This document shows, piece by piece, positions 4,460 to 42,496 of a DNA stretch of 64,000 bases. The translations under genes were made by a program, and so were the position numbers. Origin of the DNA: Oscillospiraceae bacterium. Lineage in GTDB: Bacteria; Bacillota; Clostridia; Oscillospirales; Ruminococcaceae. The notes under the pieces were generated by a model that did no database searches, was not told the DNA's origin, and saw nothing but the letters and a program-made list of their open reading frames with translations. Location: contig JAGHIE010000008.1 of assembly GCA_017887325.1 (NCBI GenBank), positions 55,189 through 119,188 of the forward strand. The letters run 5' to 3'. Position 1 is the stretch's first letter, and each line of letters begins with the position of its first letter.

Positions 4460-4725
4460 AAAAACTCTCGCCTTGAAACTTTTCAAGGACGAGAGTATCA
4501 ATTTACTTACTTTCGTGGTACCACCTTAAATTTATTTGTATAAAATTTAATACAAACCTCATTTAGCTATAACGGGCACCCCGTTGAGTTCTAACTTATT
4601 AAAGCTCAAACCCACAGCTCCAAGACCATCTTCTGCAAACACTTCTTTGTTTAGGTTTCAGCAAATCCTAAACTCTCTGTAAAAGGTTATTTACATACTC
4701 TTCTTTTCAACGCTTTTAATACAAT
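4460..4725 (-). promoter_or_regulatory. T-box leader, Met specifier, upstream of metG
   Basis: Minus strand carries AAGGTGGTACCACG (4512-4526) followed by terminator CTCTCGTCCTTGAAAAGTTTCAAGGCGAGAG-TTTTTT (4460-4495); ATG triplet in GAAGATGGTC (4627-4629) is the candidate specifier. Confidence 0.88.
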
Positions 4726-41327: not shown

Positions 41328-41906
41328 TTAAAAATATCGTATTGAAGCCACAACTTTGCCTAATATGCCAACATCTTCTACAATGATAGGTTCATATGTT
41401 TCATTTTCTGGTTGCAATCTAAAATGTCCATTTTCTTTAAAGAAAGTTTTTACAGTTGCTTCACCATCAACCATAGCAACGACAATTTCTCCATTTCTTG
41501 CAACAGAAGTTTTTTCTACAACTACTATATCTCCGTCAAATATTCCTACTTCTATCATACTTTCACCTTGTATTCTTAAAGCAAACATATTTTCAGTATC
41601 AAAAGCAGAACTATCAAAAGGAATATATCCTTCTATATCTTCTATAGCTGTTATAGGCTGTCCTGCAGCAACAGCTCCCAATATTGGAACTCTAGCAACA
41701 TTAGAGTTAGGCAATCTGATTGACCTATTAGAATTGCTTTCTTTTATAATTAACCCATTTTCACATAATTGATTTATATACTTTTGAACTGTTGATGTTG
41801 ATTTTATATCTAATGCTTTACAAATTTCTCTAACTGTAGGAGACATTCCTTCAGAAATTCGCTCTACTATGTAATCATATATTAATTTACCTTTTTCGTT
41901 TATCAC
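41328..41906 (-). CDS. lexA: LexA repressor
   Basis: N-terminal HTH, VPILGAVAAGQPITA cleavage region, GESMIEVGIFDGDIVVVEK protease motif. Confidence 0.95.
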   Translation of the reverse strand: MINEKGKLIYDYIVERISEGMSPTVREICKALDIKSTSTVQKYINQLCENGLIIKESNSNRSIRLPNSNVARVPILGAVAAGQPITAIEDIEGYIPFDSSAFDTENMFALRIQGESMIEVGIFDGDIVVVEKTSVARNGEIVVAMVDGEATVKTFFKENGHFRLQPENETYEPIIVEDVGILGKVVASIRYF

Positions 41907-41928: not shown

Positions 41929-42086
41929 ATATGTACTTTTCTATATTATAACAATACATAATACAAATTACAAACATTATTTAATATGTACAAAAAATGT
42001 TTAATAAATACCGACATAATAACAGATATTCTGATTTATTTTTATTTCACTATTTGTACATATTTTGTTAACAAAAAAATATGTAC
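41929..42086. promoter_or_regulatory. Four ATATGTAC/GTACATAT sites, candidate LexA operators
   Basis: Copies at 41929-41936, 41984-41991, 42056-42063 (reverse), 42079-42086; first two flank the lexA promoter TTGTAA-17-TATAAT; last two form an inverted repeat. Confidence 0.5.
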
Positions 42087-42103
42087 TTGTTGTATAATGA
42101 TAT

Positions 42104-42209
42104 TACTCATTATATGAGTGAGTTTTTATACTCTACCCTCCTCAATAAATACCCCTCAAGTAAGTATTTACTAAAGATGCGATGAAGCCCCCACTTCATC
42201 GCATTTTTA
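42104..42209 (+). ncRNA. Candidate small RNA with three hairpins and C-rich exposed segments
   Basis: TATAAT at 42093-42098; hairpin ACTCA/TGAGT (42105-42119); ss ACCCTCCTC; hairpin TAAATAC-CCCTCAAGTAA-GTATTTA; terminator TGCGATGAAG-CCCCCA-CTTCATCGCA-TTTTT (42178-42208); no ORF in the track. Confidence 0.6.
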
Positions 42210-42250
42210 GTATCTAAAATAAGTCTAAACTAACTATAATAGGTGATTAT

Positions 42251-42496
42251 ATGAATTTAAATTACGATTTGGATATACATCATATGACAGTAGCTGAAGC
42301 TAAGAAAACAATTGAAAGAACAGTTATGTCTTTGCCAGATAAATATTCGCAAATAACCGTTATACATGGATATTCAAATGGAAACAAACTTTTAAATATG
42401 GTTAGAGGAAAAAGTTTAAAGTGTAAAAGAATTAAACAAAAAATTCTTACACTAAATCAAGGTGAAACAATATTAATACTAAATAAAAAATCGTAA
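42251..42496 (+). CDS. Stand-alone Smr-domain protein
   Basis: LDIHHMTVAEAKKTIERTV...ITVIHGYSNGNKLLNMVRG resembles the Smr/MutS2 C-terminal domain. Confidence 0.82.
   Translation: MNLNYDLDIHHMTVAEAKKTIERTVMSLPDKYSQITVIHGYSNGNKLLNMVRGKSLKCKRIKQKILTLNQGETILILNKKS

Follow-up and report, generated by a model that had tools for sequence, protein, structure and literature searches.

Comparative sequence analysis identifies a C-rich small RNA gene beside lexA in Oscillospirales

What does the short C-rich segment between lexA and a downstream Smr-domain gene encode in an Oscillospiraceae genome, an RNA gene of its own or the leader of its neighbor? In the 64,000-nucleotide stretch of DNA analyzed here (the window), lexA is at 41328-41906 on the - strand (Pfam Peptidase_S24 and LexA_DNA_bind, and synteny) and is the divergent neighbor of the segment in nearly all genera. 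The Smr-domain gene follows at 42251-42496 on the + strand (Pfam Smr 25.0 bits, just under the 25.7 cut-off). Judged by its sequence, the segment is an independent small RNA (sRNA) gene of ~108 nt, with predicted ends at 42105 and 42212 on the + strand and with the Smr-domain gene outside it. A TATAAT box precedes it, and the RNA itself comprises a hairpin at its 5' end, the linker CUACCCUCCUCAAUAAAUACCCCUCAAG and a terminator that is strong.

Folding of the + strand from 42100 gave -33.2 kcal/mol, compared with -9.6 ± 2.9 kcal/mol in shuffles (z = -8.1; none of 200 dinucleotide shuffles was as stable), and the covariance model described below matches the RNA at 38.6 bits. The -10 box TATAAT (42093-42098, + strand) is kept in homologues; together with the fold it marks the probable promoter and transcript ends. 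All helices are on the + strand: the 5' hairpin (42105-42119), the counterpart of which covaries in other genera, a second helix (42120-42133), hairpin 2 (42146-42170), found only in the window's genus, and the intrinsic terminator (42171-42212) with a CCCCCA loop at 42188-42193. In one homologue (L005) the terminator stem carries a compensatory change to GTGATGAAG/CTTCATCAC. A sequence-only reading of the same DNA had placed the TATAAT box, the first C segment (ACCCTCCTC, 42135-42143) and the CCCCCA loop exactly as we find them, and its second C-run (CCCTCAAGTAA) is present, one base off, at 42153-42163. By contrast, its three hairpins become four helices, the terminator at 42171-42210 counted among them, and hairpin 2 is specific to the window's genus; the reading also missed the promoter element and the lexA linkage described below. 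A tRNA search found none at the sRNA. No Rfam family, RsaE/RoxS included, matched the window or the homologues at gathering score, and the matches from permissive scans were implausible. Phage or plasmid origin was rejected, as no match was credible.

Homologues were recovered in 18 genera belonging to two families of one order (six genera in f1, twelve in f24). A DNA search returned three sister species at 87-88% and a second genus, a pattern search within the family a third genus, and a gapped pattern run across the order 20 genomes, most of them in the second family, f24, and one (L063) judged spurious; a covariance model added genera g12, g5 and g180. When the same model was searched class-wide, strong matches fell only in f1 and f24, and the RNA thus appears restricted to the order; weak matches outside it (E > 1e-4, 20-24 bits) were judged to be chance. 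The nearest named relatives by LexA are Ruminococcus-like MAGs and Candidatus Faeciplasma, from which the order would be Oscillospirales. Aligned among the sister species, the RNA shows almost no change, in contrast to the DNA ahead of it and to smr, both of which have diverged. Across the 18 genera, linker and stems are conserved between diverging flanks, far beyond chance. The central claim of the sequence-only reading, an autonomous sRNA with exposed, selected C segments resembling an anti-Shine-Dalgarno (anti-SD) sequence, is strongly supported; the homologues keep their own promoter and terminator.

The members share a common plan of 5' hairpin, linker and terminator. The linker (42133-42160, + strand) is nearly invariant in the 18 genera and follows the pattern CUACCCUCCUCAA-N(2-8)-ACCCCUCAAG with slight variation; its two C-rich segments, ACCCUCCUCAA and ACCCCUCAA, hardly vary and are for the most part unpaired. 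Partition-function calculations on the window give seed 1 (ACCCUCCUCAA, 42135-42145, + strand) an unpaired probability of at least 0.97. Within seed 2 (ACCCCUCAAG, 42151-42160, + strand), recognized by linker conservation, CCCUCAA is unpaired with a probability of at least 0.91 and the UAC directly before it lies inside hairpin 2. The C-run of seed 2 lies there in the loop of this genus-specific hairpin, and seed 2 is partly closed. Two of the three exposed C-runs that had been proposed are conserved; the third, in the terminator loop, is lineage-specific: its conservation extends no further than the window's genus and g8 and does not reach f24, and it was discarded as a conserved seed. In a 16-member plain MAFFT alignment, not fitted to the structure, the 5' stem is paired in 79.4% of cells, compared with 33-49% when slid, and its covariation lies above all 500 shuffles (0/500); as these shuffles do not preserve relatedness, the comparison with slid stems counts for more. 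Covarying stems around unchanging seeds point to selection for a sequence that the stems keep exposed. C-rich stretches that are both conserved and exposed, and that complement the Shine-Dalgarno (SD) sequence, place the RNA in the broad Gram-positive anti-SD sRNA kind.

Of the 17 genera checked, 16 have the RNA and lexA in divergent orientation, whatever the downstream gene, the exception being g247 (L059, L060). This arrangement would fit an SOS-regulated sRNA, with LexA repressing both lexA and the RNA from their common intergenic region. Indeed, ATATGTAC/GTACATAT occurs four times in 41929-42086 (8 in 64 kb, compared with 3.9 expected), and two copies lie around the sRNA promoter. However, the ATATGTAC cluster was not found in the sister species, the conserved element of the sRNA promoter is a direct repeat, and the f24 palindrome CAAACATTTGTTTG is on the lexA side, ~120 nt from the sRNA promoter, a position on which a LexA operator was rejected as the conserved promoter element. 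We regard SOS control of the family as unlikely. The intergenic ATATGTAC/GTACATAT copies are possibly LexA operators of the window's species; the pair flanking the -35/-10 region of the sRNA forms the arms of GTACATATTTT...AAAATATGTAC.

The conserved promoter element instead consists of direct repeats with an 11-nt period. In the window these read TTCACT-N5-TACATA-N5-TTAACA (42046-42073, + strand), a putative response-regulator site that ends 19 nt before TATAAT. Alignment of 22 homologous promoters on TATAAT gave repeats that approximate TTHAAG-N5-TTCAYA-N5-TTAACA, with 19-20 nt between the last of them and the box; the usual -35 is absent. The exact pattern TTCAYA-N5-TTMACAA found htrA in 4/4 species of the window's genus and, in the sister species G003, nothing else; the reversed pattern had no matches in the genomes of the four species. 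With a scoring matrix built solely from sRNA promoters, the best match in the window is the sRNA promoter, itself a training member, while htrA scores 20.1 for the window's genome, 14-17 for its sister species, and is the top intergenic match within 400 kb of G003. Similar repeats are found in many htrA promoters and in the promoters of two OmpR-family response regulators of the same genomes, the free-standing htrA element being weak or absent by the matrix in several f24 genomes. Upstream of htrA in L141, L192 and L190 the repeats continue in 11-nt phase toward the -10, up to ~six copies.

Gram-positive PhoP boxes resemble TTAACA direct repeats with an 11-nt period, and the RNA might accordingly belong to the Pho regulon, activated by PhoP/PhoB in phosphate starvation. 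Yet in these genomes the pst promoters have another repeat, TTTACAT-N4-TTTACA as opposed to TTCAYAG-N4-TTAACAA at the sRNA, and the motif matches point to htrA. On the difference from the pst promoters Pho-box control was rejected, and we consider a Pho-regulon sRNA very unlikely. TTTACAT-N4-TTTACA occurs ahead of pstS-like genes in both families (L099, L101-L105, L110, L112, L114) and is likely a Pho box of the order.

Which regulator might bind the repeats? Two OmpR-family candidates stand out. RR1 is the regulator of an RR-HK-htrA operon, an example of which, with a WalR-like regulator, lies at L202:4982-8863. Of 22 genomes, 21 have it at 74-92% identity, and an htrA lies near it in the genomes compared. 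The promoter of the operon in G583 reads TTTAAA-N5-TTCACA-N20-TATAAT. In several f24 genomes the RR1 promoter has an element of similar sequence, spaced by 20 nt as at the sRNA. No clear element is present in RR1 promoters of the window's own genus, however, and G412 has the sRNA and no close RR1, for which reasons we limit the claim to a regulator of the OmpR family that the sRNA and htrA would have in common, RR1 and RR2 being the candidates and binding being predicted from the repeats. RR2, also of the OmpR family (L227-L234, L371, L373, L382), has TTCACA-N5-TTCACA in its promoter at ~9 nt, not 20 nt, from the -10, a box that suggests autoregulation. The WalR and PhoP promoters of Firmicutes likewise have 11-nt-period repeats, and the reverse complement of the present element, TGTTAA-N5-TRTGAA, resembles the WalR box (consensus TGTWAH-N5-TGTWAH; PMC9210968). 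The orientation is nonetheless opposite, and RR1, which scores best to YycF/WalR, does so with 258 bits, under the 340-bit WalR cut-off. Our literature search found no such sRNA under WalR or PhoP.

At the level of sequence comparison, these data establish an independent gene with a conserved fold, seeds under selection and promoter repeats in common with htrA. We infer from them, with a probability of roughly 0.7 for the model as a whole, that a stress-responsive two-component system switches on an sRNA, which then prevents translation by pairing with SD regions. An OmpR/PhoB-family response regulator of an envelope- or secretion-stress system, which would also control htrA, would bind the 11-nt-period repeats and activate transcription from TATAAT, and the resulting ~108-nt RNA would end at its own terminator. 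The 5' hairpin and the terminator would hold the linker open and so present the tandem seeds ACCCUCCUCAA and ACCCCUCAA, which would pair with the G-rich SD regions of particular mRNAs, such that ribosome binding is blocked. The RNA would thus be expressed and act in trans, with the regulator bound at its promoter and translation of its mRNA targets repressed.

The linker could alternatively function as a leader peptide (MFYPPQ in f24) or as a protein-binding C-rich RNA, and ATGTTCTACCCTCCTCAA is indeed common to most f24 members. However, the linker is 26-30 nt long depending on the member, a variation that disrupts the frame and indicates that it is not coding; some members run into a stop after six codons, those of f1 have no ATG and the third codon positions are invariant. 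On these grounds a coding linker was rejected, and we hold this explanation, in either form, to be quite improbable. Least probable is a cis-acting 5' UTR or attenuator of smr with read-through, a possibility that the sequence-only reading had itself named: smr follows at a distance of 40 nt in the window's genus and in g8, but a strong terminator precedes it, not every copy of the RNA lies ahead of smr in the same orientation, the downstream gene varies among genera (smr, a membrane protein, others), and homologues in the many genera that have other genes in place of smr keep promoter and terminator, so that the RNA is not the smr leader.

The proposed SD-pairing sRNA resembles known regulators in kind. 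The streptococcal csRNAs of the CiaRH regulon, defined by a CiaR site (TTTAAG-N5-TTTAAG) 10 nt before the -10 (PMC3091779), have two stem-loops that flank an unpaired stretch complementary to the SD, their promoters carry 11-nt-period direct repeats for an OmpR-family regulator, and htrA is in the same regulon (PMC3091779, PMC8186281, PMC4507080). The present RNA has the same arrangement of stem-loops and unpaired stretch, and 11-nt-period repeats for a putative OmpR-family regulator that would also control htrA. By contrast, its repeats are TTCAYA/TTAACA, they lie 19-20 nt from the -10 where a CiaR site would lie 10 nt away, and it occurs as one copy beside lexA, in another bacterial order, with two tandem C-rich seeds. 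RoxS/RsaE pairs with SD sequences through several C-rich regions and is expressed under ResD (PMC4409812). Several C-rich SD-pairing regions and two-component-driven expression are proposed here too, whereas fold and sequence are different, the Rfam covariance model is not matched at gathering score or in permissive scans, the promoter is shared with htrA and is not a ResD site, and the host group is another. The likeness to RsaE/RoxS and the csRNAs drawn in the sequence-only reading thus holds for the exposed SD-complementary C segments and does not extend to an Rfam match or the csRNA operator. With the CiaR box and the Rfam match both lacking, the sRNA is best seen as a separate family of a known kind, probably convergent. 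As far as the literature and Rfam searches reach, the family is new and its kind ordinary: the sRNA was undescribed in the literature searched, outside the supplements of an existing structured-RNA catalogue of human microbiomes (PMC8040213), and no base-pairing sRNA of such kind was found described in these gut Clostridia.

Targets were predicted in the window (54 start regions) and in 400 kb each of the relatives G003 and G001. In the window, the linker is predicted to pair best with the start region of metF (1672-1701, - strand; gene at 790-1671, - strand, MTHFR by Pfam), with a duplex of -26.5 kcal/mol, compared with a median of -9.2 for the 54, comprising 9 bp with seed 1 and further pairing with seed 2. 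One of 300 shuffled linkers did as well (p ~0.04 when CCCUCC was kept). Among 144 orthologue pairs of G003 and G001, accD was best (combined -44.0), with a shuffled fraction of 0.04-0.06 in these two sister species. The target prediction that the sequence-only reading had proposed thus yields metF and accD as leads, both marginal against shuffles. A further candidate, ilvE, was dropped, as it is not conserved in G003. In 3-4 sister species the start-site patterns TTGAGGAGG and TTGAGGGG picked out rplW and a gene of the GGGtGRT type, a result made uninformative by SD enrichment.

A wider reading, which we put forward as speculative and rather unlikely, is that of an order-wide envelope-stress sRNA of gut Clostridia whose tandem anti-SD seeds, similar to the anti-SD tail of 16S rRNA, would repress many biosynthetic mRNAs (metF and accD, for example), and whose position beside lexA would link envelope stress with SOS in some species; if true, the sRNA would have arisen as a convergent equivalent of the csRNAs and RoxS. 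Since the sRNA occurs in at least 18 genera, has a promoter element that predicts a regulator and a regulon (htrA), and presents a short, defined seed region, its regulation, targets and convergence with csRNAs/RoxS can be tested in cultured relatives. The best predicted target, metF, belongs to a metG-tatD-metF cluster that is itself preceded by a T-box leader (Rfam RF00230, 118 bits) at 4482-4719 on the - strand.
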